This document shows, piece after piece, positions 37,849-62,739 of a stretch of DNA of 64,000 nt. Under the pieces are notes generated by a model that was not told where the DNA came from, did no database searches, and saw only the letters and a list, made by a program, of their open reading frames with translations. This DNA comes from Alcanivorax sp. 24. GTDB lineage: Bacteria; Pseudomonadota; Gammaproteobacteria; Pseudomonadales; Alcanivoracaceae. Numbering within the stretch: position 1 is the first letter of the stretch; every line of letters starts with the position of its first letter. A program made the translations under genes and the position numbers. Location of the stretch: the NCBI RefSeq assembly GCF_004360225.1, contig NZ_SNUA01000002.1, positions 248,001 through 312,000 on the forward strand. Reading direction: 5' to 3'.

Positions 37849-37874
37849 TGGCGGGTATTGGTCTCTCGGTTTTT

Positions 37875-37893: not shown

Positions 37894-37973
37894 ATTCATT
37901 GGGGCGGGCTGTTGGGGCCGCGCCCCCTGGTTCGTCTTACTTCAGGGATGCCGATCAACGGATAGGTGAAGAC

Positions 37974-39850: not shown

Positions 39851-39860
39851 GGGGAGGGCA

Positions 39861-40745: not shown

Positions 40746-40796
40746 ATAGGGGGACGATCCGGGCGGCCCCGGTTTGGGGCATTGGAGGAGTGAGTG

Positions 40797-41705
40797 ATGC
40801 TTGGGAAGGCGATTCCACCGGTCTTGGTTCACGTGGCCGGCGCGGCGCTGATCATGCTGTCGTTGGTGACGCCAGCGCTGGCCGGGGACAGGTTCAAGGT
40901 GGTCACCACCTTCACTGTGATCGCCGACATCGCCCGCAATGTGGCAGGAGAGGCCGCCACGGTGGAGTCCATCGTCAAACCGGGAGCGGAGATTCACAAC
41001 TATCAGCCCACGCCTGGTGATATCAAACGTGCCCAGGGGGCACATCTGATTCTCTGGAACGGTTTGAATCTGGAGTCGTGGTTCGAACGTTTCTTCCGCC
41101 ATTTGCGGGATGTGCCCGGCGTGGTGGTGTCGGACGGGATCACGCGGCTGGGTATCGGTGAGGGCCCCTACAGCGGTAAACCCAATCCCCATGCCTGGAT
41201 GTCCCCTGACTCGGCACTGATTTACGTGGATAACATCCGTGATGCGCTGGTGCGTTACGACCCGGATCATGCGGACGTCTACCGGCGCAACGCCGAGCAA
41301 TACAAAGCCCGTATCCGGGCGCTGGTCGAACCGATTCGGGAGCAACTGGCGGCGGTGCCGGAGGCCCGGCGCTGGCTGGTTACCAGCGAGGGCGCGTTCT
41401 CTTATCTGGCCCGTGACTTTGGCCTGAAGGAGCTGTATCTGTGGCCGATCAACGCGGACCAGCAGGGCACGCCCCAGCAGGTCCGCAAGGTGATTGATAC
41501 GGTCAGGACGGAAAATATCCCGGTGGTGTTTTCCGAAAGCACCGTATCCGCCTCGCCGGCTCGTCAGGTGGCGCGGGAAACCGGCGCGGCCTATGGCGGC
41601 GTGCTCTATGTGGACTCCCTCAGCGGCCCGGACGGTCCGGTGCCCTCTTATCTGGATCTGCTGCGGGTCACCGCCGCCACCATCGCCAAAGGGCTGACTC
41701 AATGA
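40797..41705 (+). CDS. sitA: SitA/YfeA-type Mn/Fe-binding ABC substrate-binding protein
   Basis: A 302-residue cluster A-I binding protein. The signal peptide ends LVTPALA. The metal ligands expected from PsaA/SitA are present as His67 (AEIHNYQP), His132 (NPHAWMSP), Glu198 (TSEGAFSYL) and Asp273 (YVDSLSG). The glutamate, together with the absence of a His-rich loop, favours Mn/Fe over Zn. The closing [16 protein letters not shown] is typical of YfeA. ATG 40797 follows GGAGGAG. It heads sitABCD; all four genes overlap by four bases. Confidence 0.93.
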
Positions 41706-42601
41706 ACGCCGTTGCCGCCAGCCTTGCCGAATGCATTGCCCACCAGCATGGCGAGGGGATTGCCGTACAGCATGCCACCGTCACTTACCGCAATGGCCAT
41801 ACCGCGCTGCGTGATGCCAGTTTCCGTATCCCGCGTGGCACCATCGCGGCGCTGGTCGGCGTCAATGGTTCGGGAAAGTCCACGCTGTTCAAATCGATCA
41901 TGGGTTTCGTGCGTTTGGCCCGGGGCGACATCCGTGTGCTCGGCATGCCGATCCGGCAGGCTCTGCGGCGCAATCTGGTGGCCTATGTGCCGCAGGCGGA
42001 AGAGGTGGACTGGAATTTTCCGGTGCTGGTGGAAGATGTGGTGATGATGGGGCGGTACGGACATATGGGGCTGCTGCGCCGGGCCCGCGCCGCCGACCAC
42101 CAGGCGGTGGAGACAGCGCTGGCGCGGGTGAATATGGCCGACTTCCGCCAACGGCAGATCGGCGAGCTGTCCGGGGGGCAGAAAAAACGGGTGTTCCTCG
42201 CCCGCGCGCTGGCCCAGGACGGCCAGGTGATTTTGCTCGACGAGCCCTTCACCGGTGTCGACGTGAAAACCGAGGAGCAAATCATGGCGTTGCTGCGGGA
42301 ACTGCGCGAGGAAGGCCGGGTGATGTTGGTCTCCACGCATAATCTCGGCAGCGTGCCGGAGTTCTGTGATCGCACCGTTTTGATCAAGCGTACTGTTCTC
42401 GCCCACGGCCCTACCAGCGAAGTGTTTACCCAGCACAATCTGGAGCAGGCGTTTGGAGGTGTGCTGCGGCACTTCGTTGTCAATGAGGCGGGCAGCGGCG
42501 TGCCGGTTCCCATTGGTGTCTTCAGCGACGATGAACGGCCGCTGATTCTCAGGGACGGCCGGGCCTCGGCCCGTGCGACAGGGAATGGCGATAACGTATG
42601 A
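41702..42601 (+). CDS. sitB: SitB/YfeB ATP-binding protein
   Basis: A 299-residue ATPase with Walker [10 protein letters not shown] (about 58-66), signature [17 protein letters not shown], Walker [13 protein letters not shown] and the switch histidine in [30 protein letters not shown] is the Q-loop block of Mn/Zn/Fe importers. The C-terminal 50 residues extend beyond the fold. It starts in an ATGA overlap with sitA. Confidence 0.94.
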
Positions 42602-43458
42602 GTGCCTTGCTGCTGGAACCGTTCGGCTATCACTACATGGTCAACGCCATGTGGGTATCCGCTCTGGTCGGCGGCGTCTGCGCGTTTCTGTCCTGTTTCC
42701 TGATGCTCAAAGGCTGGTCACTGATCGGTGACGCGCTGTCGCATTCCATCGTACCTGGCGTGGCCGGGGCCTATCTGTTTGGGTTGCCGATCTTTATAGG
42801 CGCTTTCTTTTCCGGTGGTTTGGCGGCGGCGGCCATGCTGTTTCTCAACCAACGCACCAAACTGCGGGAGGATGCGGTGATCGGCCTGATCTTTTCCGCG
42901 TTCTTCGGGTTGGGCCTGTTCATGGTTTCCCTGTCGCCCACTTCGGTGAATATTCAGACCATCGTGCTGGGCAACATTCTCGCCATCACGCCAGTGGATA
43001 CCCTGCAACTGGCGCTGATCGGGCTGGTCTCCCTGGCCGTGCTGTTGATCAAATGGAAGGACCTGATGGTGACTTTCTTCGACGAGAGTCACGCGCGCTC
43101 CATCGGCCTGAACCCGGCCCGGCTCAAGATCCTGTTCTTCACCCTGCTGTCGGCATCGACGGTGGCGGCGCTGCAGACCGTGGGCGCGTTCCTGGTGATC
43201 TGCATGGTGGTAACGCCCGGCGCCACGGCTTATTTGCTCACCGATCGCTTTCCCCGATTGTTGATGATCGCGGTGGCAATTGGGTCGCTCACCAGCCTGA
43301 CCGGCGCCTACATCAGCTATTTTCTCGACGGCGCCACCGGCGGTGTGATCGTGGTGCTGCAAACGCTGATCTTTCTGCTGGTGTTTATGTTGGCTCCGAA
43401 ACACGGTTTGCTGGCCGCGCGCAAAAGGGCGGCACGGGCCTGCGCGGAGCCGATATGA
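42598..43458 (+). CDS. sitC: SitC/YfeC permease (ABC-3 family)
   Basis: A 286-residue ABC-3 permease with about eight helices. Conserved blocks are [20 protein letters not shown] and [20 protein letters not shown]. The family is specific for Mn, Zn or Fe import. The ATG overlaps sitB by four bases. It is a clear paralogue of SitD and the two form the channel as a heterodimer. Confidence 0.93.
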
Positions 43459-44428: not shown

Positions 44429-44447
44429 GTTAATGAGAATTGATATC
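44429..44447. promoter_or_regulatory. Fur box before fecI of module 3
   Basis: GTTAATGAGAATTGATATC matches about 14 of 19 Fur consensus positions. Its first 14 bases are identical to the box before fecI of module 2. It lies 43 bases before the chosen fecI start. Confidence 0.78.
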
Positions 44448-44490
44448 ATCTATACTGTTTGGTACCGGTTTGATTCACGCCAAGAGTGGT

Positions 44491-45021
44491 ATGGGGGAGA
44501 GCTTGAAGTCGGCTGACAGAGCGGTGGGTTACACCGACGGGAAGTTGAAGACCTATCTGAGCCATCGCACCGCTCTGGTGGACTATGTCGCCCGCATCAC
44601 CGGTTGCCGCGCGCGGGCTGAAGATCTGGTCCAGGATGTTTTTTTCCGTTTCGTGCCAGGAAACGAAGGGTCTCCCGCTTCGTCGGGGGTCGGCTACCTG
44701 TACCGTATTGCCCGTAATCTGGCGATTGATTTCGCGAGGCGGTCGGCGATGGAAACCCGCCATCAGAATGAACGGATGGTTGAGTGGCTCAGACCCCAGG
44801 AGATACCGGGGCCGGAGCAAATTGTACAGCAGCGGGCAAACCTGGAGAGAGTCGCGGATATTCTGGATGACCTTCCGGAAAAGGAACGTATTGCCGTCGA
44901 AATGCACAGGGTGGGTGGGTATACTTTCGCTGAAATCGCAGACAGGCTGGGTATTTCCGTTCCCACCGCGCACCGGATGGTGCGTAACGCCGTGATCAGG
45001 ATCGCGGCGGAAATGGAGTAG
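44491..45021 (+). CDS. FecI-type ECF sigma factor, module 3
   Basis: A 176-residue ECF sigma. Region 2 includes RAEDLVQDVFFRFVPG and YLYRIARNLAIDFARR; region 4 includes TFAEIADRLGISVPTAHRMV. ATG 44491 is chosen; TTG 44503 with GGGGGAG ahead is a good alternative. Starts further upstream would place the coding region on the Fur box. Its opening KLKTYLSHRTALVDY parallels the module 2 sigma. It should activate receptor 3. Confidence 0.9.
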   Translation: MGESLKSADRAVGYTDGKLKTYLSHRTALVDYVARITGCRARAEDLVQDVFFRFVPGNEGSPASSGVGYLYRIARNLAIDFARRSAMETRHQNERMVEWLRPQEIPGPEQIVQQRANLERVADILDDLPEKERIAVEMHRVGGYTFAEIADRLGISVPTAHRMVRNAVIRIAAEME

Positions 45022-45064
45022 ACGGGAGGCTGTTCTGCTTAAGTTCATCGAGTCCGGACCCAAC

Positions 45065-46069
45065 ATGCCGACTTTCCACCATCAGGACCCGGATCGGGAC
45101 CGCGAGCCGTCGTCCGTGCCGGATTCCCTTCTGTTGCAACAGGCGACGGACTGGATGCTGGCGCTTGAGGCGGCGCCGGATGATCGGCGTTTGCGCCGCG
45201 AAGTAAGCCGCTGGGTAGCGGGGAACCGTGAACACAAGGCAGCGTGGGATCGGGTCAGCCGGGCCTGGCAACTGATGGGCACGATGCCGGTCGACCGGGC
45301 CTCCTGGCCCGATGCTTCCGAACCCAAGCAAACCGGATGGCGGCGGCCTCCGGTCCGCTGGCTGGTGGGCACGGCGCTGGCGGCCTGTTTGATGATCGCC
45401 GTTCTCCCGGGCCTGGGCCTGCGTTGGCCGTTGTGGGTGGATCATGTTTCCGCGGTGGCGCAGTCCCATATCCTCACCCTGCCGGATGGCACCCGTGTTC
45501 AGCTCGGTGCCGACAGCGCTTTGAATGAGCACTTCGATGGCCGGGAACGCCGCGTGGAGTTGATGCGTGGTCAGGCTTTTTTTGACATCGCGCCGGATGC
45601 CTCGCGCCCTTTTATCGTTACCGTCCGGGGTATGGAGATCCGCGATATCGGTACGGCTTTCGATGTGTTGGCGGGAGAACGTCAAGCCGTTGTCACCGTG
45701 CAGGAAGGCGAAGTGGTGATCTCGTCGCGGGCGGTTGAGCGTCATGTGCTTCCCGGCGAGCAACTGGTTTTAAACCCGGACGGTGGTGAAGCCCGCCTGC
45801 ATCATCTTCCCATCGACCGTGTCGCCGGCTGGCGTGAGGGGAGGCTATTTGTGCAGGACCGCTCGGTGGCCGATTTGCTGGACACTCTGAGGCGGTATTA
45901 CAAGGGGTACATCCTTATCGCCGATGATGACCTCGGCGCTCGCCGGGTCACCGGAAGTTACGATCTGACCGATGTGGACGCCGCGCTGGCGGCGCTGGTT
46001 CGTCCCCATGATGGCCGGGTTATTCATGTCACCCCTTTTTTGCGGGTAGTCCTCGGCCCGTCCTCCTGA
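45065..46069 (+). CDS. FecR-type anti-sigma/transducer, module 3
   Basis: A 334-residue protein. The DUF4880 region (QQATDWMLALEAAPDDRRLR) precedes a membrane helix (WLVGTALAACLMIAVLPGLG). The FecR domain has TLPDGTRVQLGADSALNEHF and GTAFDVLAGERQAVVTVQEG, with a DUF4974 tail VADLLDTLRRYYKGYILIAD. It closely resembles the module 2 FecR over these blocks. It starts 43 bases after fecI and is followed by a 122-base gap before the receptor, which should hold the sigma-dependent promoter. Confidence 0.9.
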   Translation: MPTFHHQDPDRDREPSSVPDSLLLQQATDWMLALEAAPDDRRLRREVSRWVAGNREHKAAWDRVSRAWQLMGTMPVDRASWPDASEPKQTGWRRPPVRWLVGTALAACLMIAVLPGLGLRWPLWVDHVSAVAQSHILTLPDGTRVQLGADSALNEHFDGRERRVELMRGQAFFDIAPDASRPFIVTVRGMEIRDIGTAFDVLAGERQAVVTVQEGEVVISSRAVERHVLPGEQLVLNPDGGEARLHHLPIDRVAGWREGRLFVQDRSVADLLDTLRRYYKGYILIADDDLGARRVTGSYDLTDVDAALAALVRPHDGRVIHVTPFLRVVLGPSS

Positions 46070-46191: not shown

Positions 46192-48939
46192 ATGACAGGA
46201 CGGTGTTGGCGTGCCCGGCGTGGGGCGGTACCGCCCTTGCTCCGGTTTCTGATGATGATGTTGGCGGTGGCCTGGCCCTTGGCCGTGACGGCACAGCAGG
46301 AGAGTCGTGCTTTGATTGACTTCGACATTCCCGCCCAGCCTTTGCCCACGGCACTGGATTCTTTTTCTCGCCAGTCCGGACTACAGGTTTCCGCCGACGC
46401 CGGCCAGTTTGGCGGGCATTACTCCCGGGAGGTTCATGGCAGTCTGGCGATTCAGGAAGCGTTGAATCAGCTGCTTGGTGGCACCGGCTTGCTCTGGTAC
46501 ATCGCCGACGGCAAAACCGTGGTGGTGGAGGCGGGGCCAGCCGCCGGGGACGCCATGGTGCTGGACCCGATCAAGGTGCAGGGTCGCGCTTCGGCGGAAG
46601 ACAAACCCTACACCACGGCGGGTTCGGCCGCGTATATCAGCCGCAAGGAGATCGAGCGTTTCAGGGGGACGTCGGTGGGCGATATGTTCAAGGGCACCAC
46701 TGGTGTGCTGGTGGCGGAGAACCGCAACAGTGGCGGTCTGAATATCAACATTCGGGGTATGCAGGGGCAGGGCCGGGTGCCGGTGCTGGTGGATGGCGCC
46801 CGTCAGGAAACCACGGTTTACCGGGGCTACGCGGGGGTCACCAGCCGAAGCTACGTGGACCCGGACCTGATCGGCGGGGTGGAAATCGACAAAGGGCCGA
46901 CCATGACTGCCGGTGGTACCGGTGCCATCGGTGGATTGGTGAACATGCGCACCATAGACGCTGATGACATCGCCAAGCCCGGCAATAGCTATGGTCTGCG
47001 GTTGCGCGGCAGTTTGATCGGCAACAACAGCGGTTCGCCGGCGGATCTCGGCACCCAGGCGGGTTATAACGTGGGCGGGTTGGGCACGCCTGGCCATTAT
47101 CGTACCGACTGCCAGCCCGGCAGCACCCTGTGTGATGGCAACAACAGTCTGGACAATGCCTATCCCACAGCGAAGACCATGGGCAGGCCGGGCTCCGGTG
47201 ACTTCGAAGGCCACGCCGGCAGTCTGGCGATGACCTGGCGTCTGGCTGGTGCCGATCTGGTGGCCGCCTACGCCCAGCGCAGACAGGGAAACTACTATGC
47301 TGGTGAGCACGGTCCCACGCCCACGCTGGATCTCTCGGAACGCTATGACCGTGGTTTCTACACCGAGATCCGTCCCCGGGTGGACGGCGCCTCCCGCATT
47401 CGTGGCGGCGAGGAAGTGGTCAATACCCATTTTGAAAGTGAATCCACGCTGCTGAAGACCCGTCTTTATCCCAGTGACGACCATATCCTGGAATTCAGCT
47501 GGTTACGCTACGACAGCGAGTATGGTGAGTTAATGCCCTCGGAATTACTCTGGCTGGGCCGCATCAAACAGACCGAAGCCTCCGAGGTCACCGCCAACAC
47601 CTATACCGGGCGCTACCAATGGCAGCCGTTGAGCAGTGACTGGCTGGACCTGGATCTTCACCTCTGGCACACCGATACCGAGAGCCGCAACAACAGTTAT
47701 TCCGAGGAAATGCTGGAACTGCTCGGCGGCGGCCGGCCCGGCACCGAGATTTATCGCCGCTGGGGCGGAGATCTGACCAACACCACTTCGCTGCCGCGCT
47801 TCGGTGATCTGCAAGTGCGTTATGGTGTCGCATGGCAGCGGGAAGAGGTTAAACCGAAAGATGAGAATGCCGGTGAAGCCTTCGCCATGCGTGACGGCGA
47901 GCGACAGGAAACCAGCGCTTTCCTGGCCATGAAATGGACCTTCGTGCCGACCCTGACCCTGGATGCCGGTATCCGCCATACCCGTTACAGCAGTGACGAT
48001 AACAGGCCGGTGGAAGTGAACGATCCGGACAGTCCTCATTGCGTGGATGGTAATGGTGACGGTGCTTGTGACTCGCTCTTCAATGACTTCAGCGGTTCCG
48101 GCTCCGCGCCCATGGTCAGTTTGCTGTGGGAGCCGCTGTCCGGTTTGCAGTTTTACGGCAAGTACGCCGAGGCCTTGCGCATGCCGAGTCTGTTCGAAAC
48201 CACCGCCGGCTTTTCCGTGGCGGCGGTGCCTGGTCAGCGCATCAAACCGGAGCGCGCCAAGAACCGGGAAGTCGGCATGAACATTCTGAAGGATGATCTG
48301 TTCACCGCTGGAGATGCCCTGCGCTTCAAACTGGCGTACTTCGAAAACCGCACCGAGGATTATCTCACTCGCACCATTCCCAACACCTGGGACGACACCA
48401 GCATCGGCTCCAACGGTCTGCTGTTCCGCATGCAGAATCTGGAAAGCGTGGAATTTCACGGCCTGGAGTTATCACTGGAATACGATCTGGGCTGGGCCTA
48501 CGCGGAACTGGGTGGCACCCGCTACAACAATATCGAGCTGTGCCATGAAGGTAGTTACCGTCGCCAACGCTGTACCGACTACGGCGTGGCCAATAGCTAC
48601 ATCAACAACATGATTCCGCCCAACTGGCAGGCCAACGCCACGCTGGGGTTCCGTTTGCTTAACCGCACTCTGGAAGTCGGCGCGCGCAATACCTGGATGG
48701 GAGCCCGTAACCGGGTGCCGGAATACAACGACCAGACCCAGGGACGTTTCGCCACACCTATCCCCTGGCACCAGTACTCCATTCTTGATGCTTTCCTGAC
48801 CTGGAGCCCCAACGACACTTTCTCGCTGGACTTCAATGTGGATAACGTCACCGACCAGTACTACCTGGATGCCCTCAGCCTGGGCATGGTGCCGGCACCG
48901 GGGCGCACCGCCCGCCTTGGGTTCACCTTGCAGTACTGA
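46192..48939 (+). CDS. TonB-dependent receptor with STN domain, module 3 (hemophilin-linked)
   Basis: A 915-residue receptor. The signal peptide is LRFLMMMLAVAWPLAVTAQQ and the STN domain (about 42-115) has FDIPAQPLPTALDSFSRQSG. The plug has LDPIKVQGRASAED and SGGLNINIRGMQGQGRVPV; the barrel ends ARLGFTLQY with terminal Tyr. Cys pairs match the other receptors: TDCQPGSTLC, CVDGNGDGACD (48040-48072) and CHEGSYRRQRC. It heads a run of receptor, PKD lipoprotein, hemophilin-like protein and Slam. It is probably the HphR-type receptor for that hemophilin. Confidence 0.93.
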   Translation: MTGRCWRARRGAVPPLLRFLMMMLAVAWPLAVTAQQESRALIDFDIPAQPLPTALDSFSRQSGLQVSADAGQFGGHYSREVHGSLAIQEALNQLLGGTGLLWYIADGKTVVVEAGPAAGDAMVLDPIKVQGRASAEDKPYTTAGSAAYISRKEIERFRGTSVGDMFKGTTGVLVAENRNSGGLNINIRGMQGQGRVPVLVDGARQETTVYRGYAGVTSRSYVDPDLIGGVEIDKGPTMTAGGTGAIGGLVNMRTIDADDIAKPGNSYGLRLRGSLIGNNSGSPADLGTQAGYNVGGLGTPGHYRTDCQPGSTLCDGNNSLDNAYPTAKTMGRPGSGDFEGHAGSLAMTWRLAGADLVAAYAQRRQGNYYAGEHGPTPTLDLSERYDRGFYTEIRPRVDGASRIRGGEEVVNTHFESESTLLKTRLYPSDDHILEFSWLRYDSEYGELMPSELLWLGRIKQTEASEVTANTYTGRYQWQPLSSDWLDLDLHLWHTDTESRNNSYSEEMLELLGGGRPGTEIYRRWGGDLTNTTSLPRFGDLQVRYGVAWQREEVKPKDENAGEAFAMRDGERQETSAFLAMKWTFVPTLTLDAGIRHTRYSSDDNRPVEVNDPDSPHCVDGNGDGACDSLFNDFSGSGSAPMVSLLWEPLSGLQFYGKYAEALRMPSLFETTAGFSVAAVPGQRIKPERAKNREVGMNILKDDLFTAGDALRFKLAYFENRTEDYLTRTIPNTWDDTSIGSNGLLFRMQNLESVEFHGLELSLEYDLGWAYAELGGTRYNNIELCHEGSYRRQRCTDYGVANSYINNMIPPNWQANATLGFRLLNRTLEVGARNTWMGARNRVPEYNDQTQGRFATPIPWHQYSILDAFLTWSPNDTFSLDFNVDNVTDQYYLDALSLGMVPAPGRTARLGFTLQY

Positions 48940-49220: not shown

Positions 49221-51782
49221 ATGGCTGTGCTGATCAGACCGATATCCCTGTTTTGTATGTTATTACTGCTTGCCGCCTGTGGGGGAGGAGGCGGTGGTGG
49301 TGGCGGCGTCGCGCGCCCGGAGGCGAATGTCAGCGCCGATGTCACCGAAGTGAACGTGGGTGAAGACACGGTTCAGTTGGACGGCAGCGCCAGCAGCTCG
49401 CCCAGCGGCGATATCACCACCTGGCAATGGCGTTTCCTGAGTGTCCCGGAGGGCAGCGAAGCGGCTCTGGACGGCGCCGACACCGATCGGGCCAGCTTCA
49501 CTCCGGATCTACCCGGCACCTACGTGGTGCAACTGGTGGTCAACGATGGTACCGCTGACAGTGCCGACACCGCGTCCAGCCGGGTCACCATCACTGCCCT
49601 CAACCCCAACCCGCTGGCGGTGGTGACGGAAGAAATCAATTGGATCCTGGGCACGGTGCAACTGGACGGCTCCCGCAGCCTGCCGCCGGACGGTGGCGAT
49701 GCCAACCTGCTGGTCTATGACTGGACGCTGACGCAAAAACCCGAGGGCAGCAGCGCCGAACTGGATAGCGGCAATCTGGCTTACCCGCGCTTCACCGCCG
49801 ATGAGGTGGGCCGCTACCAGGCGCAACTGGTGGTGCGCTACGGCGACAAGGCCAGCCAGCCGGCCACGGTGGGCATCAATATCGTCGAGGAAAAAGCCCC
49901 GCCGGTGGCGGCCATCGCGCCGCTGGACGAGACCGTTCCGCGCGGCGAGATCGCCACCGTGGATGGCTCCCCCAGCGAGGATCCCAATGGCGGCGAGCTG
50001 CAGTACCGCTGGCGGTTTACCAGTCTTCCGCTCGGCGCCAGCGGCGAGTTTCTCAATGGCAGCGACAAGCAGGCGCAGGCCCGCTTCGTGGTGGATTCGG
50101 CCGCCAGGGCCTACTACCGTCTTGAACTGTGTGTGTATAACGGTATTTCACGAACTTGTACCCGCCCGTTTCAGGTGAACGTGGCGGCGCCGGAAGACGA
50201 ACCGAACACGCCGCCGGTCGCGGTGATCGCCCCGTCCTACAATGCGACCTGGGAGGCGGAGCGGGGAGCCGCGGTCAATACCAGTGGCGGCAGTTCCTAT
50301 GACCTCGATGGCGATGCCTTGACCTACCAATGGGAGCTGGTGTCGGCGCCTGGCGGCTTTGATGCGGAAGCGAACAGCAGTCTGGACAGCTGTACCAACA
50401 GTACCTGCTGGCCCGGCTTTACGCCCACCGTGGATGGTGACTACGTCGTTCGTCTCACTGTCTCCGATGCTGAATCCAGCCATTCCGTGACCGAAACCTT
50501 CACCGCCATACTGGGGGCCAATCGTCCCCCCTCCGCCTCCGTCGCTATTGCGGGCGCTGCCACGGTGCTGGTGGGCGTGACGGCCACGTTCGACGGCGAA
50601 GGCAGTACTGACCCAGACGATAACCGGCTCGATTACCAGTGGACGCTGTTGGATCGCCCCGATAACAGCGAAGCGGTTTTGCAGGGCGCGAACACCGCTT
50701 TTTCGATGCTCACGCCGGATCAGGCCGGTCCCTACCGGGTGCAATTGGTGGTTACCGATGAGCACGGCTGGTCTTCACTGGCGACCGAGGTCGTGCTGAT
50801 GGCGAAGTCTTCCAATAACGCCCCATTGACACGGATTTCCAAAGTCGCGAGCACCGGGGCTGGTGAGGCTAATGTCGTTACTCAGCCACATTATGATGCG
50901 GAGCAGCCTTTCGCTATCGTTAACCAGCGACGAAAAAGTTCAGATGAAAACCTCGTATGGGGGAGAACCTTTGCCCGAGATGATGTCTTTATACTCAGTG
51001 CTGACAGTTACGATCCGGATGGCGACCCTTTAAGTCACCTATGGTCCCTGGTCGATGGGCCCAGCGGGAATCGCTGGGAATTCAGCGCTGGTTATTCAAC
51101 GGCTGATAGCTGTGTCGAGCCGTGGAATGCCGTTGGTGGAGAGGACCTTCAGGAATATCTTGACCACTTGGCGGCTCTCACCGAGTGGCCCTGCTCGAAT
51201 CTGCACTTGGCGCCCACTGAGCCAGGCACCTATGTGTTCCAGTATCAGGTCTATGACGGCAGTGAATTCGCCGGCCCCTTCACCACCACCGTGCACGCTG
51301 TGCTTAAAGAAGAGTACCCCAGCTTGTTGCTGGAAATTCCGATGACGTACTACTGGGAAGGGGAGCCCCGTGAAGGAGCGCTTCAGGCCACCTTCCCTTG
51401 GGTAAATACACGGGCAACTGGATGGAACTGGGATTTACGATCATGGAATGAGGGTGTCGTGGAACTGGAAAAGGATGGAACTTATCGCCTTACCGCCTAC
51501 GGTGGAGATTACACCTTGATCGACGTGACAACCCACTCGGACAACCCGAGCTACCAGCCTGTCTTCTACGACGTTACCCACGATCAGCCAGTGACCGAGG
51601 GCTATGTGATTCGTGAGGGTGAGTCCATTGATATTCACTATCAACTGGAGATTTCCGGGGAAGCGGAACCAACGGATCAAGACGAACGGGACGCCCTGGC
51701 CGCCCGGCTGAGGGAAGCCAATATCCGTGGATCCTTCCGCGTACAGGAAAAGGAGGGCTGGATCATTTCCCTTGGTGGTTAG
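49221..51782 (+). CDS. PKD-repeat poly-glycine lipoprotein, module 3
   Basis: An 853-residue lipoprotein. ATG 49221 gives MAVLIRPISLFCMLLLLAAC with the lipidated cysteine at residue 20, then nine glycines. The open frame extends upstream but through the mobile-element-like repeat and without a signal. Six PKD-like repeats follow (for example LDGSASSSPSGDITTWQW, DLPGTYVVQLVVNDG). The C-terminal domain has EEYPSLLLEIP, YRLTAYGGDYTLIDV and EGYVIREGESIDI. In this position it separates the receptor from the hemophilin-like gene. Function is unproven. Confidence 0.87.
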   Translation: MAVLIRPISLFCMLLLLAACGGGGGGGGGVARPEANVSADVTEVNVGEDTVQLDGSASSSPSGDITTWQWRFLSVPEGSEAALDGADTDRASFTPDLPGTYVVQLVVNDGTADSADTASSRVTITALNPNPLAVVTEEINWILGTVQLDGSRSLPPDGGDANLLVYDWTLTQKPEGSSAELDSGNLAYPRFTADEVGRYQAQLVVRYGDKASQPATVGINIVEEKAPPVAAIAPLDETVPRGEIATVDGSPSEDPNGGELQYRWRFTSLPLGASGEFLNGSDKQAQARFVVDSAARAYYRLELCVYNGISRTCTRPFQVNVAAPEDEPNTPPVAVIAPSYNATWEAERGAAVNTSGGSSYDLDGDALTYQWELVSAPGGFDAEANSSLDSCTNSTCWPGFTPTVDGDYVVRLTVSDAESSHSVTETFTAILGANRPPSASVAIAGAATVLVGVTATFDGEGSTDPDDNRLDYQWTLLDRPDNSEAVLQGANTAFSMLTPDQAGPYRVQLVVTDEHGWSSLATEVVLMAKSSNNAPLTRISKVASTGAGEANVVTQPHYDAEQPFAIVNQRRKSSDENLVWGRTFARDDVFILSADSYDPDGDPLSHLWSLVDGPSGNRWEFSAGYSTADSCVEPWNAVGGEDLQEYLDHLAALTEWPCSNLHLAPTEPGTYVFQYQVYDGSEFAGPFTTTVHAVLKEEYPSLLLEIPMTYYWEGEPREGALQATFPWVNTRATGWNWDLRSWNEGVVELEKDGTYRLTAYGGDYTLIDVTTHSDNPSYQPVFYDVTHDQPVTEGYVIREGESIDIHYQLEISGEAEPTDQDERDALAARLREANIRGSFRVQEKEGWIISLGG

Positions 51783-51799
51783 ATTTCCTCTTTCCGCCG

Positions 51800-51831
51800 A
51801 ACGCCGGGCCTATGGTCCGGCGTTTTGGTTT
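51800..51831 (+). terminator. Intrinsic terminator after module 3 lipoprotein
   Basis: AACGCCGGGCC-TAT-GGTCCGGCGTT forms an 11-bp stem with one G-T pair, followed by TTGGTTT. It begins 17 bases after the lipoprotein stop and isolates the hemophilin-like gene. Confidence 0.8.
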
Positions 51832-51939: not shown

Positions 51940-52049
51940 GTTCTTGCCGGATGAACCCCGGCGGCCGGAGATGGGCTACGGAAGGAGCAGGGATGATCCC
52001 AACCTTCGGCCACTTCCCAGAACGTTTCATTGATCAAGGAGTTTGAGTG

Positions 52050-52856
52050 ATGAAGGTAACAACCAAGAAGACAGCTTTCGGTGCCCTGGTGCTCTCCCTG
52101 TCGCTGTCCTGTGTGGCACAGGCCGCGCCTTTTGCTGGCGATGTCAGTGATGGGACGTATATCGCAATTGGTCAATCCGGAGGGCCCTGGGGGCCACATC
52201 AACCGAATCTTTCTGGTATTGGTATCGATGCTGGTGGAATGACCAAGAGTCAGATCGTTGACATTCGATTCCTGGCTAGTTTGGACTCGACGGGGCAGGC
52301 TCTTCATTATGGTGAAGTGGCCAGGCAACTGGATATGAGAGGAACCGGCCCTGATCCGGATCATACAGGTCTGGGCTATTTCACTTTCGTGGGGGTGGGC
52401 GATATCAGCGATGATGTCTGGTTTGGAGAGTGGTCTTGGAGTGGGCCCTCAGGCTTTAGTGATCGGGCGGTATTCTATGTGGGTGATAAGGACGGTGTGT
52501 CCATGCCTAGTTCAGGAACCGCGGTTTATAGTGTCAATGGCTTGAACCAGTTTGCTGCATCTGGCGATGAGTTGTATGGCTCTTTGAATGCTGATTTCGG
52601 CAACGGCAGCCTTTCAGGGGGCTTCCAGAATGGTGCTCTAGGGATCAGTGTCGACGCCAGTATTGCCGGTTCCTCATTCACCGGCACGGCCGAAGCCTAT
52701 AACCCAGCCACTTCCGCCACCCTCGATGCCAACGGCGTAAGCAAAGGCGAGTTCTACGGCGCCGACGCGGCCTTCCTGGCCGGCATGGCCACCTTTGTCA
52801 ATAACAGCCAGTACGACACCTCCTTCGGCGGTGAACGCGGCGCGATCACGCCCTGA
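52050..52856 (+). CDS. Secreted hemophilin-like protein (TbpB-type barrel), Slam client 1
   Basis: A 268-residue exported protein. The signal peptide ends CVAQAAP (signal peptidase I type, no lipobox). The N-terminal half is rich in Gly and Asp, with possible heme ligands in GPWGPHQPN and DPDHTGLG. FYVGDKDGVSMPSSGTAVYS follows. The C-terminal TbpB-like 8-strand barrel runs through LYGSLNADFGNGSLSGGF to GEFYGADAAFLAGMA. This layout is that of Acinetobacter HphA and Haemophilus hemophilin. ATG 52050 follows AAGGAG. The adjacent Slam should export it. Heme binding is predicted, not shown. Confidence 0.85.
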   Translation: MKVTTKKTAFGALVLSLSLSCVAQAAPFAGDVSDGTYIAIGQSGGPWGPHQPNLSGIGIDAGGMTKSQIVDIRFLASLDSTGQALHYGEVARQLDMRGTGPDPDHTGLGYFTFVGVGDISDDVWFGEWSWSGPSGFSDRAVFYVGDKDGVSMPSSGTAVYSVNGLNQFAASGDELYGSLNADFGNGSLSGGFQNGALGISVDASIAGSSFTGTAEAYNPATSATLDANGVSKGEFYGADAAFLAGMATFVNNSQYDTSFGGERGAITP

Positions 52857-52920: not shown

Positions 52921-52956
52921 ATCTTTCCGCTATTGTCTGCCCGCGAGCTTTCCGAC

Positions 52957-54465
52957 ATGCGCTTTTTCGCGTTATTCCGTGTTGTTCCTCGCCACGCCCC
53001 GTTGCTTTATTTGACCCTGCTGGTTTTCGGGTTGTCGCCGCATTTCGCCATCGCTGATCAGGACACCGAGCTGCGTTTGCAGCAGGGCATTGAGCGCACC
53101 GCCCGGCAGCGTGAGCAGGAGCTGTTGCGGGAGGAACGTGCCAGGGATGAGGCGCTGCCGAACCTGATCATCAATGGACAGGAACATGAAGTGCGCCGCA
53201 ACCGCGACGACCTCGGCCGAGCCTTGTATGTGGCGCTGCGTAGCCGTAACTGGACGGCGGCGGCGCGCTTTCTCGATGTCTATCGGGAGCTGGAGAATCC
53301 GGACCCGATACTGCTGCACTATGCGGAAGGCAAACTGGCCCGGCTGCGTGGTGATCTGAGCCGGGCGGAGCAAGAATTCCGCTCTCTGCTGGCGTTGAAC
53401 GATGCGTTTCTGCCGGGGCAGTTGGAACTGGCCAGGGTACTGTTCGAGAACCAGAAAAATCGCGAAGCCGAAACCCGTTTTCGCGATATTCTGGCCCGGG
53501 TGGAGACGGTTCCCGATCAGGACAAGACCGCCGGAGTCAGAAGCACGCTGGAAAATTTTCTTGAGGCACTGAAAGAACGCCGTGGTTGGCAGGGTCGTAT
53601 CGCCGCCGGGCCCGGTTACAGTGACAATATCAATCAGAGTTCCGAGAATGAAACCTGTTTGATCTGGTTTGCCGAGGGGCTGTGCTACGTCCGCCGCACG
53701 GCGCCGGAGGCGATAGGCACCGAAACCCTCAGCTATGAAATGAGTCTGGAAAAGGATGTTTTCTTGCCGGGCCATCACGGCCTGTTCTTCCGCGCACTGG
53801 CTTATGGTGATCGCTATCGTGATCACAGTATCTATAACCAGGACACGCTCAATGCCAGTGCCGGTTATCGCTTCCGTGACGTCAACGATGTGTACGGTCT
53901 GGCGCCGCTGTTCGAACACGCCCGTTACGGTAACGAGGGGCTCTACGATGCCTGGGGCGGGCGTGCCGAATGGATGCACTATCTGTCGCCGCGCACCGCC
54001 TTCAAGTTCGAGGGCAGTCATAAACGCATGCGTTATCGCGAAGTTTATTCCCGTTTCGATGGCGACATGAGCAGTCTGTACGCCACTGCCTGGCACCGGC
54101 TGGGCGCGGACTGGACCCTGTTCGGCGGCCTTGACGGCGTGGACCGTAATACCGAGGAATCAGTCAGTTCCTACCGCCAGTATGGTGTGCGACTTGGGCT
54201 TGCGAAGCCGCTGATGAGGGGGGTGGAGATGACCCTGCTTGCTTCCCTGCGTGACAAACGCTATGACGCTTACAGCGCTTTGCTGGGTGAACGCCGCGAG
54301 GATAGAGAGCAGCGTTATATCGGTATTTTCAGCTTTCCACGCTGGTCCTTCGCCGGAATCGTTCCTGGTATCAATCTGGAATACACCAGAGTCAAAAGCA
54401 ACGTGGACTGGCTTTACAGCTTTGATGAGAAAGTCATCGGGTTCAAATTAGAGCGCCGTTTTTGA
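52957..54465 (+). CDS. Slam (surface lipoprotein assembly modifier, DUF560) translocator 1
   Basis: A 502-residue outer-membrane protein. A signal peptide (LLYLTLLVFGLSPHFAIADQ) precedes an N-terminal periplasmic helical/TPR domain (about 40-210, with DLSRAEQEFRSLLALNDAFLPGQ). A 14-strand-type C-terminal barrel begins at about 215 (RIAAGPGYSDNINQSSEN) and ends VIGFKLERRF with terminal Phe. ATG 52957 is preferred over an upstream TTG that would start within 15 bases of the terminator. Slams move TbpB-barrel proteins across the outer membrane, so the hemophilin-like neighbour is its client. Confidence 0.92.
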   Translation: MRFFALFRVVPRHAPLLYLTLLVFGLSPHFAIADQDTELRLQQGIERTARQREQELLREERARDEALPNLIINGQEHEVRRNRDDLGRALYVALRSRNWTAAARFLDVYRELENPDPILLHYAEGKLARLRGDLSRAEQEFRSLLALNDAFLPGQLELARVLFENQKNREAETRFRDILARVETVPDQDKTAGVRSTLENFLEALKERRGWQGRIAAGPGYSDNINQSSENETCLIWFAEGLCYVRRTAPEAIGTETLSYEMSLEKDVFLPGHHGLFFRALAYGDRYRDHSIYNQDTLNASAGYRFRDVNDVYGLAPLFEHARYGNEGLYDAWGGRAEWMHYLSPRTAFKFEGSHKRMRYREVYSRFDGDMSSLYATAWHRLGADWTLFGGLDGVDRNTEESVSSYRQYGVRLGLAKPLMRGVEMTLLASLRDKRYDAYSALLGERREDREQRYIGIFSFPRWSFAGIVPGINLEYTRVKSNVDWLYSFDEKVIGFKLERRF

Positions 54466-54686: not shown

Positions 54687-55667
54687 TTAATAAATCAGCG
54701 TAACGCCCGCCAGGTGCAGAGTACGCAAATCCAGTTCCTGTTCCAGGGTGGCCCAGGCGCGGTCCAGGTTGTCCAGACGGAATACGGCGCTGATTGGTCT
54801 GCTTGCCTTTTCTGTGTCGAGGAAGACCGCCCGTCCCGCTCCGAAGCGGCGCAGGCGTTCAGCCACGGATGCCAGACTTTGTTGGCGGAAGATCAGCAGA
54901 CCACGGCTCCAGCCGGCTTCCTGGGAGGGGAGCAAGTCGCTGGCGAAAAATTGGCCGGCATTGAACGTCAGGCTGTGGCCCTCGGCCAGATCACGATTTT
55001 GCCCTCTGTCATTGGAAGAAACCCGGATGCTGTGTTCCAGCACGCCGATCCAGCCGCCCTCGGGGTCGTCCAGACGTACCGCGTAGCGGGTTCCTAGGGC
55101 GCGGCTTTCGGTTCCGCCGGCCTCCACGACAAAAGAGCGTTTTTCCTGACCGGCACGGGGTGCGGGGCTGAAAATCGCCTCGCCGCGCCGCAGCCGGACC
55201 CGCCGTTCCTGATCCGAATAGTCAACGTCCAGGGCGCTGTCGCCCGCCAACTGCACCTGGCTGCCATCCTCCAACGTCAGAGTGCGGATTTCTCCGGCCT
55301 GGGTAACGAAATCCCCTGGCTCCTGGATCCAGGGCCCGGTACGCCACACCATCACCAGAGCCAGGAGTGCGGCGGCGGTGGCCAGCGCGGGAGTGAGCCG
55401 GAACCGGCGCGCCCGTCTTGAAGGCGGTGTCTGAAAGACGGGATCATCCGCCAATTGCCCGCTCAGTTGCCAGGCTCGTTGGGCGCGGCGGTAAGCGCGC
55501 TGATGAGCCTCATCCTGTCCCAGCCATTGCCGCAGACGTTGGTGATCAACCTCCGACCAGTCGCCATGGTGCTGCTGGACCACCCACTCCGCCGCGCGTT
55601 GGTCCAAGTCGTCACTGCCTTGTTCGTGGTCCACGATCCACCATTGCGTTTCCGTGTCCGTTGTCAT
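54687..55667 (-). CDS. FecR-type anti-sigma/transducer, module 4
   Basis: A 326-residue protein. The DUF4880 region (AAEWVVQQHHGDWSEVDHQR) precedes a membrane helix (LTPALATAAALLALVMVW). The FecR domain includes TLEDGSQVQLAGDSALDVDY and GTRYAVRLDDPEGG, with a DUF4974-like tail. The C-terminus ends LAGVTLIY. ATG overlaps the fecI stop by four bases. Unlike modules 1-3, this pair is divergent from its receptor. Confidence 0.9.
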   Translation of the reverse strand: MTTDTETQWWIVDHEQGSDDLDQRAAEWVVQQHHGDWSEVDHQRLRQWLGQDEAHQRAYRRAQRAWQLSGQLADDPVFQTPPSRRARRFRLTPALATAAALLALVMVWRTGPWIQEPGDFVTQAGEIRTLTLEDGSQVQLAGDSALDVDYSDQERRVRLRRGEAIFSPAPRAGQEKRSFVVEAGGTESRALGTRYAVRLDDPEGGWIGVLEHSIRVSSNDRGQNRDLAEGHSLTFNAGQFFASDLLPSQEAGWSRGLLIFRQQSLASVAERLRRFGAGRAVFLDTEKASRPISAVFRLDNLDRAWATLEQELDLRTLHLAGVTLIY

Positions 55668-56197
55668 GGTTCGGCCTGCTCCAGTCCGCGGGAAATGGCG
55701 GTGATCGCCAGGACCAGATGTTTCTGCACCGAGCTGGTGGAGATTCCCAGGTGGCTGGCGGTTTCGTCCCGCGTAAGCCCCTGGATCCGTGATAGCTGAA
55801 ACACCGCCCGGGTAACGGGCGGTAGAGACAACAGTATATCCCTGAGCCGGTCCATTTCCTCCTCCTTTCCCGCCAGTTGCTCCGGCCCGGGGTTGGGATC
55901 GACCACCGTGTCCAGAACGAGAGGCGCGAGGCTGTCGGTGGCCCGCGTTCGAGTCTGACGTAAATGATCAATGAGCAGGTTGTTGGCGGTGCGGAACAAA
56001 TAGGAGGGTTGGTTGGCGATGGCGCTCAGATCATGGTGACGAGCGATGCGCGTGAAGGCCTCTTGAACGATGTCCGCGGAGAGATCGGGATCGTTGGTCT
56101 TCTTCTGCAGATATTGCCGCAACCTGTTGGCGTATTGACGGAATAGTTCTTCAAGCACTGGATATCGACCCCGCCGCCCCTGAAAGGTGGGCAACAT
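55664..56197 (-). CDS. FecI-type ECF sigma factor, module 4
   Basis: A 177-residue ECF sigma. Region 2 has RQYANRLRQYLQKKT and SADIVQEAFTRIARH; region 4 has LTRDETASHLGISTSSVQKH. ATG 56197 is chosen because a Fur box (56204-56222) lies directly upstream; the longer frame starting at 56239 would encode that box as an odd run of isoleucines. Neither start has a clear ribosome-binding site. It is divergent from receptor 4, sharing a Fur-rich promoter region. Confidence 0.88.
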   Translation of the reverse strand: MLPTFQGRRGRYPVLEELFRQYANRLRQYLQKKTNDPDLSADIVQEAFTRIARHHDLSAIANQPSYLFRTANNLLIDHLRQTRTRATDSLAPLVLDTVVDPNPGPEQLAGKEEEMDRLRDILLSLPPVTRAVFQLSRIQGLTRDETASHLGISTSSVQKHLVLAITAISRGLEQAEP

Positions 56198-56203
56198 AAT
56201 ATT

Positions 56204-56222
56204 GATAATGATTATTGTTTGC
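56204..56222. promoter_or_regulatory. Fur box before fecI of module 4
   Basis: GATAATGATTATTGTTTGC has a perfect first nine bases and about 14 of 19 overall. It abuts the fecI ATG at 56197, which argues against the longer upstream start. Confidence 0.75.
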
Positions 56223-56304
56223 AAATCTACGTAAGGCATAAAAAAAGTATATTTATTCCCAAAAGGTATATTCGGTCTTCTCTCCGCTTCGTTCTTAAGG
56301 GACA

Positions 56305-56345: not shown

Positions 56346-59105
56346 ATGCCCTTTGTGTGGTCCGCTGCTTCGCGGATTAGCCAATGCCGTTTTTTTGTCC
56401 TTGTCGTGTTGCTGTGCTGGGGCCCCGGGGGGCAGGCGCAAGATACCTCGTCGGCGACGCTGCTGTTCGAGATTCCGGAATTGCCCCTGGACAGCGCGAT
56501 ATTGATATTTAGTGAACAGGCCAGTGCCGAAGTGATCCTTGATGGCGCCGTGGCGGCCTTGCGCGGTAACGCTCTTTATGGGCGTTACACGCTGGAGCGG
56601 GGCCTGCAACGGCTGCTGGCGGGCACGGGGACCCGTTTCGAGATTCGCGACAACGCGGGTCATCCTCTGATCAGGTTGATTCCGCCTCCGTCGTCGCCGT
56701 CTGATGTGCTGTCACTGGAACCGATTCGCGTACAGGGCGGAGCATCACCCGTGGATAAGGCTTTCCGCACGCCTGGGTCCGCCTCCCATATTGATCAGCA
56801 ACACATAGAACGTTTTCGCGGCACCTCGGTGGGGGACATTTTTCAAGGAGTACCGGGCGTGCTGGTGGGGGAAAACCGCAACAGTGGCGGGCTGGACATC
56901 AATATCCGCGGCATGCAGGGGCAGGGCCGGGTGCCGGTGCTGGTGGACGGCGCCCGCCAGGAAACCACCGTGTACCGCGGCTATTCCGGGGTGGCCTCGC
57001 GCAGCTACATCGATCCGGATCTGATCGGCGGCATTGACATTATCAAGGGGCCGAGTCTGAGCGCTCAAGGCACCGGGGCGGTGGGTGGTCTGGTGTCGAT
57101 GCGCACGCTCAATGCCGAGGATATCGTTCGCGATGGCCGTGATTTCGGCATGCGCGTGCGTGGCAGCGCGATTGGCAATAACAGTGGTTCGGCGGTCAGT
57201 CCGGGCACGCCGGCGGGCTTGTTCACCGGGGATTTTGGTGGCGCCGACCCGGTCTACCGGACCGACTGCGTCAACGAGAGCCTGTGTTCTGGTGATCAGG
57301 CCATGCCATCGGATTGGGGGTATCCCGATGGCATGGATCGCCCGGACTGGTATGAGGCGAAGAGCTGGGCCGGCAGCCTCGCCTTGGCCAAGCGCTTGGA
57401 AAGCGTCGATCTTGTGGCCGCTTACGCGGAGCGGCGTCAGGGAAACTATTACGCCGGAGAGCATGGTCCCTCGGCCTGGGTCGACCTGTCGGACCGGCGC
57501 AAAACGCCCTTCTATACCGAAGTTAGTCCGGTGATTCGCGGTGCATCGCGGTTTCAGGCCGGCGAACGGATTCCCGGTACCAACTTCGAAAGCAAATCCG
57601 GCCTGCTCAAAGCGAAAATGTTCCTTCCCGAGGACCAGGAGCTGGAACTGAGCTATCTGCGCTACGAAAGCGTTTATAGCGAAATCATGCCGTCGCAGAT
57701 TATTCGTTTTGCCAACTTCTCACCGGTTTCGCAGCCACGCGACAGCGACGTTACCGTTGATACGTACACCAGCCGTTATCGTTGGAACCCGGCGGCCTGG
57801 CCTTTGCTGGATTTCAAGGCCGGCCTCTGGCATACCCGGGCCCGCTCCACCAATAACAGCCCCAGCGCCACCGAGGCCAATCTCTACAACAATGAACGCG
57901 AGACCTATAAGCGCTGGGGGATGGAGCTGGAAAATACTTCCGATTTTCTTCATGGCGCCTGGGGGGAGAGCCAACTGCGCTATGGCTTGTCCGGGCAATG
58001 GGAAGACGTGGGCACCACCGCGCTTACCGAGGATACCCGTGGCCTTGCCGGGCGCAACGGCAAGCGTGATGAGTACAGTGCCTTCGCTGCCTGGCAGTAC
58101 AAGCCGGTGTCCAGCGTGGTACTCGACGCCGGCCTGCGCTATACCCGCTTCAAGTCGCGTGATGACAAACCCATCACTGTCTATGATCCCCGCAGTCCCA
58201 ATTGCGTGGACGGTGACGGTGATGGGGAATGCGATCCGCTGCCCAATCGCAACCGCCGAAGTGGCACCGCACCGATTGTGACACTGAGTTGGGAACCGGG
58301 AAACGCCGGGTTGCAATTTTATGCCCGCTACGCGGAAGCGTTGCGCATGCCCAGCCTGTTCGAAAGCTCCAGTGGCTTTTCCTTCGAAACCGCACCGGAT
58401 GTGGTACTGAAACCAGAGCACACCCGTAACCGGGAAGTGGGGATTAACTACCTCAAGGACGGCCTCTTCCTCGAACGGGACAAACTGCGCCTCAAGCTGT
58501 CGTATTTCCGTAACCATACCCGGGACTACCTGACGCGCACCTTACCGAATCTGTGGGAAGAGGGGGGCGACACCACCATCGTCTCCCAGTTCACCATGCG
58601 TAATATCGATAGCGCCCGCTTCCATGGCGTGGAGCTGTCCGGTGGTTATGACATGGGGGTGTTCTTCACTGAGTTCGGCGTGACCCGTTACAACCATATC
58701 GAGATCTGCCACACCGGCAGCTATCGTCTTCATCGCTGTAACGATTACGGCATCGCCGCCAGCTACATCAACAACATGGTGCCACCACGCTGGCATGGCA
58801 GTCTGACTCTGGGGATGCGTTTACCACGCCCGGCACTGGTGCTTGGTGTACGCGGTACCTTCATGGGAGAGCGTAACGAAGCGCCGGAGTATAACGACGA
58901 CACCGCTCGCAGCTTTCTGGAGGTGGTGCCCTGGCATTCCTATCGGGTGTACGACTTCTTCGCCAGCTATCAGGCCACTGACCGGATCAGGCTGGACTTC
59001 AATCTGGATAACTTCACCGACCGCTATTACCTGGACGCCCTCGGGTTGGGGCTGATTCCAGCGCCCGGGCGCACCGCCCGGTTAAGTCTGACCTGGCAAT
59101 ACTGA
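56346..59105 (+). CDS. TonB-dependent receptor with STN domain, module 4 (hemophilin-linked)
   Basis: A 919-residue receptor. The signal peptide is FFVLVVLLCWGPGGQAQD and the STN domain (about 38-110) has FEIPELPLDSAILIFSEQAS. The plug has LEPIRVQGGASPVD and NSGGLDINIRGMQGQGRVPV; the barrel ends ARLSLTWQY. The same three Cys pairs recur: TDCVNESLC, CVDGDGDGECD (58203-58235) and CHTGSYRLHRC. The operon continues with lipoprotein, hemophilin-like protein and Slam. Heme-protein uptake is expected; the exact ligand is unknown. Confidence 0.93.
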   Translation: MPFVWSAASRISQCRFFVLVVLLCWGPGGQAQDTSSATLLFEIPELPLDSAILIFSEQASAEVILDGAVAALRGNALYGRYTLERGLQRLLAGTGTRFEIRDNAGHPLIRLIPPPSSPSDVLSLEPIRVQGGASPVDKAFRTPGSASHIDQQHIERFRGTSVGDIFQGVPGVLVGENRNSGGLDINIRGMQGQGRVPVLVDGARQETTVYRGYSGVASRSYIDPDLIGGIDIIKGPSLSAQGTGAVGGLVSMRTLNAEDIVRDGRDFGMRVRGSAIGNNSGSAVSPGTPAGLFTGDFGGADPVYRTDCVNESLCSGDQAMPSDWGYPDGMDRPDWYEAKSWAGSLALAKRLESVDLVAAYAERRQGNYYAGEHGPSAWVDLSDRRKTPFYTEVSPVIRGASRFQAGERIPGTNFESKSGLLKAKMFLPEDQELELSYLRYESVYSEIMPSQIIRFANFSPVSQPRDSDVTVDTYTSRYRWNPAAWPLLDFKAGLWHTRARSTNNSPSATEANLYNNERETYKRWGMELENTSDFLHGAWGESQLRYGLSGQWEDVGTTALTEDTRGLAGRNGKRDEYSAFAAWQYKPVSSVVLDAGLRYTRFKSRDDKPITVYDPRSPNCVDGDGDGECDPLPNRNRRSGTAPIVTLSWEPGNAGLQFYARYAEALRMPSLFESSSGFSFETAPDVVLKPEHTRNREVGINYLKDGLFLERDKLRLKLSYFRNHTRDYLTRTLPNLWEEGGDTTIVSQFTMRNIDSARFHGVELSGGYDMGVFFTEFGVTRYNHIEICHTGSYRLHRCNDYGIAASYINNMVPPRWHGSLTLGMRLPRPALVLGVRGTFMGERNEAPEYNDDTARSFLEVVPWHSYRVYDFFASYQATDRIRLDFNLDNFTDRYYLDALGLGLIPAPGRTARLSLTWQY

Positions 59106-59149
59106 CCGTGATAAAGCCGACGATTCAAACACTGGAGGACTCTTTACCC

Positions 59150-61693: not shown

Positions 61694-61735
61694 ACCCTGT
61701 AAGCAAAAGCAGCTTTGAATTAAGGAAGTGATGGT

Positions 61736-61765
61736 CCTCTTTCGGGCTCATGAGCCTGAAAGAGG
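61736..61765. repeat. Long perfect hairpin before hemophilin 2
   Basis: CCTCTTTC-G-GGCTC-AT-GAGCC-T-GAAAGAGG forms a near-continuous 14-bp stem (one G-T) in the leader between lipoprotein and hemophilin-like gene. No T-run follows. A smaller GTGTGC-AAA-GCACAC hairpin lies at 61779-61793. These may stabilise the hemophilin message after processing. Confidence 0.65.
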
Positions 61766-61814
61766 GCGTTCAGCAACCGTGTGCAAAGCACACATTCTCG
61801 TAGGAGTAAGACTC

Positions 61815-62720: not shown

Positions 62721-62739
62721 CTGAATGGATATTTCCCCC

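Follow-up and report, generated by a model that had tools for sequence, protein, structure and literature searches.

The window analysed here is a 64,000-nucleotide stretch of the Alcanivorax sp. 24 genome (contig NZ_SNUA01000002.1, positions 248,001 to 312,000; the whole genome comprises 4.76 Mb in 99 contigs). It carries four gene modules, each with a HasR-like, TonB-dependent receptor and, downstream of it, one or two long putative lipoproteins built of PKD (Ig-like) domains. This study deals with these lipoproteins, in particular that of module 3, and with their relation to the receptors. Coordinates are those of the window, unless a locus number (L) precedes them.

Receptors and PKD lipoproteins of the window

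17349-19832, minus strand: PKD lipoprotein of 827 residues, distal tandem copy of module 1
19964-22504, minus strand: PKD lipoprotein of 846 residues, receptor-proximal tandem copy of module 1
22536-25391, minus strand: HasR-like TonB-dependent heme receptor with STN-like N-terminal domain, module 1
27324-29921, minus strand: PKD lipoprotein of 865 residues, module 2
29955-32684, minus strand: HasR-like receptor, module 2
46192-48939, plus strand: HasR-like receptor, module 3, with a cysteine-bounded loop at residues 617-626
49221-51782, plus strand: PKD lipoprotein of 853 residues, module 3; residue 20 is the predicted lipid Cys, a Gly tether and PKD-like domains follow, and the C-terminal domain starts near residue 697
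56346-59105, plus strand: HasR-like receptor, module 4
59108-61693, plus strand: PKD lipoprotein, module 4; 861 residues from the GTG at 59108, 849 from 59144

Receptor and lipoprotein share a strand in every module, with gaps of 31, 33, 281 and 2 bases in modules 1-4. The module 1 receptor is followed by two tandem lipoproteins, the others by one each. A whole-genome search retrieved only these four receptors of the class (1670-1696 bits; next best 162). Because each of them has a lipoprotein, the first-pass annotation was right, for this genome, in speaking of every receptor. Its description of one architecture behind all four receptors was also borne out, with five lipoproteins (827-865 residues) for the four. 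The nearest solved relative of the receptors is HasR of Serratia (E 1.8e-86), and the N-terminal signalling part aligns too. Both receptors that were scanned passed the TIGR01785 cut-off, with Pfam STN just below its own.

All five lipoproteins have a lipobox, a Gly-rich tether, PKD domains and, at the C-terminus, a further domain some 150 residues long, and the other four align end to end with that of module 3, at 37-42% identity. In the module 3 protein the lipobox reads LLLAAC, with nine Gly after the Cys. The Pfam PKD families PF18911 and PF22352 were above the curated cut-off in 5/5. In an AlphaFold2 model of the mature module 3 lipoprotein (834 residues, 36 sequences; mean predicted local distance difference test, pLDDT, 86.8), the chain is beta-rich along its whole length. 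In our reading of strands and alignment, with domain boundaries set by ourselves, the predicted rod consists of six PKD domains. Foldseek matched the full rod to chains of Ig domains (titin, Robo2) at template modelling (TM) scores of at most 0.18 to the query among the 50 matches listed, which is informative as to kind only. The C-terminal domain, modelled alone, reached a mean pLDDT of 91.0 and a predicted TM-score of 0.84. It had no Pfam match at E ≤ 0.001 and no match in a PDB sequence search at E ≤ 5. Foldseek returned nothing for it at E ≤ 0.001, the best hit being at E 0.01 with low TM-scores, and these PDB and Foldseek results do not support a known fold for this domain.

The first-pass annotation had laid weight on the poly-Gly tether, which turned out not to be distinctive, Gly runs after a lipobox Cys being common in this genome. 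Besides the five lipoproteins, nine in-frame Gly runs follow a lipobox-like stretch (L117, L124, L127-L131, L133, L134), one of them, L134, in another PKD protein. The whole-genome pattern search gave 18 places, fewer than the 27 of the backward control, and one of the places (L126) looks spurious. Among relatives of the lipoproteins the tether varies from GGSS to 11 Gly. We therefore dropped poly-Gly as a defining mark.

Pairing, co-inheritance and divergence

A genome collection was scanned with two peptide patterns taken from the window receptors' own alignment, which yielded 54 loci. Receptors of at least 350 bits were tabulated (59 rows, four added from the family search below), and those under 350 bits were left out. 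The lipoprotein lies downstream on the same strand in 38/38 rows of at least 1091 bits and in 0/21 rows of at most 831 bits; no row scores between 831 and 1091. The pairing sought outside this genome was thus found. In 33 of the 38 paired rows the lipoprotein frame overlaps the receptor or begins at most 67 bases from its end, and the other five have receptor and lipoprotein separated by a divergent ExbB-ExbD-TonB set. The pair is present across Gamma- and Betaproteobacteria, in bacteria of sea and soil, and the pattern-scan loci include the genera Alloalcanivorax, Microbulbifer, Pseudoalteromonas, Marinobacter, Solimonas, Comamonas, Pigmentiphaga, Hydrogenophaga and Lampropedia. Two records titled Bacillus subtilis (L089, L093) carry Gram-negative-type TonB receptors and are probably mislabelled or contaminated assemblies.

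A family sample of 46 genomes held 14 class receptors in eight genomes, all 14 with a lipoprotein within about 5 kb. In a sample drawn evenly from the class (229 genomes), receptor and C-terminal domain occurred in the same two genomes, that of the window and one other, in which they stand side by side on one strand. A plasmid search gave partial matches of less than 40% identity in five records. The counts are not independent, because near-identical relatives were kept (L055/L057/L065; L067-L069; L049/L050; L043/L044) and the family sample overlaps with the pattern-scan loci (L043-L046, L052). Furthermore, one L087 row is cut downstream by a contig end, in L044 little sequence is left beyond the lipoprotein, and L080 is split in two frames.

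The C-terminal domain also occurs elsewhere. The family sample gave 27 matches in 12/46 genomes, 16 beside class receptors and 11 away from them. Eight of the 11 receptor-free loci were fetched and seven viewed; all seven are stand-alone PKD lipoproteins, 6/7 beside an XRE-type regulator. The stand-alone proteins (L106-L113) have 648-979 residues and, in most, a C-terminal part with some resemblance to the domain of the receptor-linked proteins. A lipoprotein accompanies every class receptor seen, and a looser family of such lipoproteins exists without the receptor.

Receptor and lipoprotein are inherited together. Over 41 pairs (L046 was left out of the alignment and the trees), tree distances of the two proteins correlate at 0.894, against 0.186 for the best of 999 label permutations. 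For the four pairs of the window, the real pairing ranks first of 24 possible ones (0.914; next 0.803). In both trees each of these four pairs belongs to a group of its own: one contains L052, L054, L077 and L097, another L082 and L104, a third L043-L045 and L047, and the fourth betaproteobacterial Slam modules. The two results on the window pairs are more telling than the overall correlation, which would be expected of any stable operon. The two trees disagree in some deeper branches (e.g. L053, L048-L050), so exchange between modules may have occurred.

A difference between paired and unpaired receptors lies in the stretch 592-650, with at least two Cys in 41/41 paired and no Cys at all in 18/18 unpaired receptors (counted without L080 and two L087 rows). 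This Cys-bounded stretch, which precedes the L7 region, was taken for L6. PMC6981324 counts L6 in CA1, which we took for a HasA contact area. The Cys loop is not exclusive to paired receptors, because HasR, without lipoprotein, has a Cys pair at a distance of nine residues in the aligned stretch. As a docking site for the lipoprotein it was set aside on this ground and kept as a lead only. A Ca-binding (DxDxDG-like) loop was likewise rejected, since it fits only 24 or 25 of the 41 by two patterns.

The tandem lipoproteins of module 1 diverge from base to tip, identity falling from 100% in PKD1 through 90% in PKD2, 62-65% in PKD3-5 and 41% in PKD6 to 26% in the C-terminal domain. Another module, in A. 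marinus, has a tandem pair with 97, 92, 48-63, 53 and 40% in the same order. From PKD3 on, the two window copies differ in their closest relatives (L077 and L052). This pattern fits a conserved membrane-proximal base with an exchangeable tip. In both tandem pairs (window 17349-22504; L043:15097-20392), the first 730-795 bases are nearly identical (94% at the DNA level) and the rest is divergent, suggesting gene conversion or domain exchange.

Optional partners and neighbouring genes

The other genes of the modules and their surroundings are the following, with FecI- and FecR-like genes named by resemblance of their translations.

25497-27037, minus strand: FecR-like anti-sigma gene (25497-26723) and FecI-like sigma gene of the extracytoplasmic function (ECF) type (26507-27037), module 1
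32830-34414, minus strand: FecR-like (32830-33960) and FecI-like (33848-34414) genes, module 2
34999-37848, plus strand: heme oxygenase, ExbB, ExbD and TonB, between modules 2 and 3
37848-40685, plus strand: ATP-binding cassette (ABC) importer (periplasmic binding protein, FecCD permease, ATPase), probably for heme, judging from position
44440-46069, plus strand: FecI-like (44440-45021) and FecR-like (45065-46069) genes, module 3
52047-52856, plus strand: hemophilin (HphA_N + HphA_C), module 3, optional in the family
52933-54465, plus strand: Slam, outer-membrane protein of the type XI secretion system, module 3, optional
54687-56239, minus strand: FecR-like (54687-55667) and FecI-like (55664-56239) genes, module 4, divergent from the receptor
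61728-62615, plus strand: hemophilin-like Slam cargo, module 4, optional
62725-64000, plus strand: second Slam, module 4, continuing past the window end (open frame of 492 residues)

Searches by phmmer with the window proteins found a hemophilin-like cargo with Slam downstream of the lipoprotein in 14 of the 38 modules; within the window this holds for two of four (modules 3 and 4). The module 3 hemophilin meets both HphA families, and the module 4 cargo matches only the C-terminal barrel family, below its cut-off. The remaining 24 modules showed no such cargo with Slam within 11 kb, L044 and some others ending at contig ends. A SlipAM (Slam) match was absent in 13 of 17 pair-bearing genomes, a sample made up of 14 genomes picked for Slam-less modules, the genome of the window and two relatives, with completeness reported for three of the 17. 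The four genomes with a match are that of the window and three of Pigmentiphaga type, which also hold Slam modules. The absence of cargo was judged on Slam, because the HphA_C model, positive in 3/22 genomes, misses divergent cargo, including that of three genomes in which phmmer detects it. Locus L083 (Allopusillimonas) has receptor, TonB, hemophilin (HphA_N + HphA_C) and Slam, and no lipoprotein. The constant unit is therefore receptor plus lipoprotein, with hemophilin and Slam as optional parts.

These results do not sustain the term hemophilin-type, which the first-pass annotation had given to the receptors: HasR is their nearest solved relative, 24 of the 38 modules showed no hemophilin-like cargo with Slam, and 13 of the 17 genomes no Slam match. 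Its remark that known hemophilin systems lack such a lipoprotein agrees with L083 and with the published Acinetobacter locus (HphA-HphR-HsmA), whose description, in the passages on its genes, lists heme oxygenase and TonB besides hemophilin, receptor and Slam, and mentions no such lipoprotein. Heme oxygenase genes lie near 15/38 paired and 5/21 unpaired receptor rows. These counts leave heme as the likely cargo, with no tie to the lipoprotein.

Some further neighbours were recorded. A strong hairpin follows the module 3 lipoprotein at 51799-51825; counts from a promoter and terminator scan were near chance, and the hairpin was not used. A ZnuABC-like zinc importer (40794-43458) stands between the ABC importer on the heme oxygenase side and module 3. 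A third Slam was located about 10 kb past the window end (L116:13816-15381; G000:C2:321816-323381), near another Gly-rich lipobox protein. A tetratricopeptide repeat (TPR) protein at 16668-17345 on the minus strand has counterparts near modules L048-L052, L054, L071, L077, L078 and L097. Such proteins lie near 15/37 pair-bearing loci, in several directly after the lipoprotein where Slam is absent.

A candidate bipartite heme receptor

The explanation towards which we lean is a bipartite heme receptor, in which the HasR-like receptor works with a stalked surface lipoprotein that captures the heme carrier, independently of Slam. The lipoprotein would be the standing second half of this receptor, together with the TonB-dependent part and the ECF-type signalling genes. 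Anchored in the outer membrane by a tether rich in Gly and Ser, it would continue as a rod formed by about six PKD domains and end in a C-terminal tip, and it would be held at the surface beside the receptor, extending past the lipopolysaccharide. A PKD domain measures about 4 nm, and the modelled rod would thus be about 25 nm long. The fast-diverging distal domains would catch the heme carrier, be it an outside heme protein or, where made, the secreted hemophilin, and pass it to the receptor. Heme would then enter via TonB and be opened by heme oxygenase. A wider proposal, to which we give some credence without favouring it, is that of a class of bipartite heme receptors of Gamma- and Betaproteobacteria able to work without Slam and without hemophilin. 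HasR-like receptors would here be permanently paired with a rod-shaped lipoprotein, and its tip, of undescribed fold, would be swapped on a conserved base, whereby alternative capture arms could serve one receptor.

Several observations weigh against this interpretation. The heme-ligating residues of HasR, His189 (plug) and His603 (L7), as given in PMC6981324, align in the four window receptors with Tyr213 and with a gap. Neither is kept, so heme is not a proven substrate. The Tyr at the His189 site is present in 41/41 paired and 18/18 unpaired receptors. Counts of His in the FRAP/NPNL segment were dropped, since the segment occurs in 28/41 and 4/18 rows and the counts took in trailing His rather than the HasR position. 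No conserved His was found in the alignment of the lipoprotein C-terminal domain, and heme ligation by this domain was accordingly rejected; one Tyr (745 of the mature lipoprotein) is kept there at 97%. In addition, the 11 of 27 C-terminal-domain matches without an adjoining class receptor represent related PKD lipoproteins that stand alone. All paired receptors may form one clade, and their shared traits may reflect ancestry only. The gradient of the tandem copies also fits gene conversion limited to the first 730-795 bases. Finally, the lipoprotein could face the periplasm.

The last point leads to a rival that we regard as rather unlikely, although it is the most serious one: the lipoprotein sits on the periplasmic side of the outer membrane, where its rod spans part of the periplasm and aids TonB or the receptor's signalling arm (STN/FecR). 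By default, lipoproteins that Lol sorts to the outer membrane stay inside, and the lipobox and the residue after its Cys (Gly in 37 and Ser in one of 38, by a simple pattern that allowed Asp) fit such sorting. The 13 genomes without a Slam match point the same way, as do the FecI- and FecR-like genes beside 37/38 paired receptors and the FecR-like gene alone beside the remaining one. However, FecI/FecR-like genes also accompany 19/21 unpaired receptor rows, so signalling does not require the lipoprotein. Moreover, the divergence of tandem copies peaks distally, as expected of a part that meets variable ligands.

It is improbable that the lipoprotein acts as a hemophilin holder, keeping or placing the hemophilin that Slam secretes close to the receptor, as the first-pass annotation had suggested. 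Cargo and Slam do follow it in 14 modules, two of them in the window, but they were not found within 11 kb in the 24 other modules, with the contig ends noted above, 13 of the 17 genomes showed no Slam, and L083 combines receptor, TonB, hemophilin and Slam without a lipoprotein. A chaperone or assembly factor of the receptor that binds no ligand, which we rate slightly lower still, would show the same tight gene coupling and co-inheritance, yet the 21 rows of related receptors without a lipoprotein speak against it, and it gives no reason for the divergent tips of tandem copies. Least probable of all, in our view, is co-inheritance only, the lipoprotein being a member of a larger PKD lipoprotein family with a role in adhesion or in the envelope that travels in the same operon. 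The stand-alone relatives, mostly beside XRE-type regulators, would suit this idea; a pairing of 38/38 against 0/21 across Gamma- and Betaproteobacteria, with matching trees, is hard to obtain without a shared function.

The proposed bipartite receptor has counterparts among known systems. HpuA-HpuB and TbpB-TbpA/LbpB-LbpA of Neisseriaceae likewise combine a lipoprotein gene with a neighbouring TonB-dependent receptor around iron or heme, and PMC7857515 describes lipoproteins that extend outward and act with the transporter as one receptor. The five window lipoproteins differ in having no TbpB_B_D or HpuA family match (E ≤ 0.001) and PKD domains instead. They also differ from the Slam-dependent TbpB, LbpB and HpuA in that 13 of the 17 genomes with the pair, a sample chosen largely for modules without Slam, gave no Slam match. 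The pair most likely works like HpuA-HpuB, outside that family.

We know of no lipoprotein partner of HasR. The window receptors share its sequence relation and STN-type signalling part, and differ in His189 and His603; HasR accepts heme from soluble HasA, according to PMC6981324. With the hemophilin systems of Acinetobacter and Haemophilus, two of the four window modules share a hemophilin-like cargo and Slam, but here the lipoprotein is constant and the hemophilin optional, whereas the Acinetobacter locus, as far as its description above extends, is without lipoprotein. The proposed hand-over also resembles that of XusAB, SusCD and other lipoprotein-transporter pairs of Bacteroidota, a different phylum; in XusAB a surface lipoprotein gives the substrate to a TonB-dependent transporter, as stated in the abstract on that system. 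The five lipoproteins contain no SusD/RagB-type family (Pfam, E ≤ 0.001). With PKD-domain proteins (PF18911, PF22352) the lipoproteins share the domains that make up the rod, and they differ in the C-terminal domain, for which the searches described above gave no match. Literature searches in open-licence PubMed Central (preprints lie outside this scope) listed no paper on this receptor-lipoprotein pair, and 'PKD' does not occur in the main text of PMC12282271, PMC8406197, PMC8560813, PMC5449769 and PMC7857515.

The best-known lipoproteins that partner TonB receptors belong to Slam systems of the Neisseria type or to Bacteroidota. If our interpretation holds, free-living Proteobacteria would possess another, unrelated design, and hemophilin and the receptor-lipoprotein pair would combine independently. 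It also names an unclassified C-terminal domain that can be tested, and it would raise the question of how a long lipoprotein gets to the surface without Slam. GspD was over its cut-off in 22/22 genomes, and the type II secretion system is a known route for the lipoprotein PulA, as described in PMC7857515.

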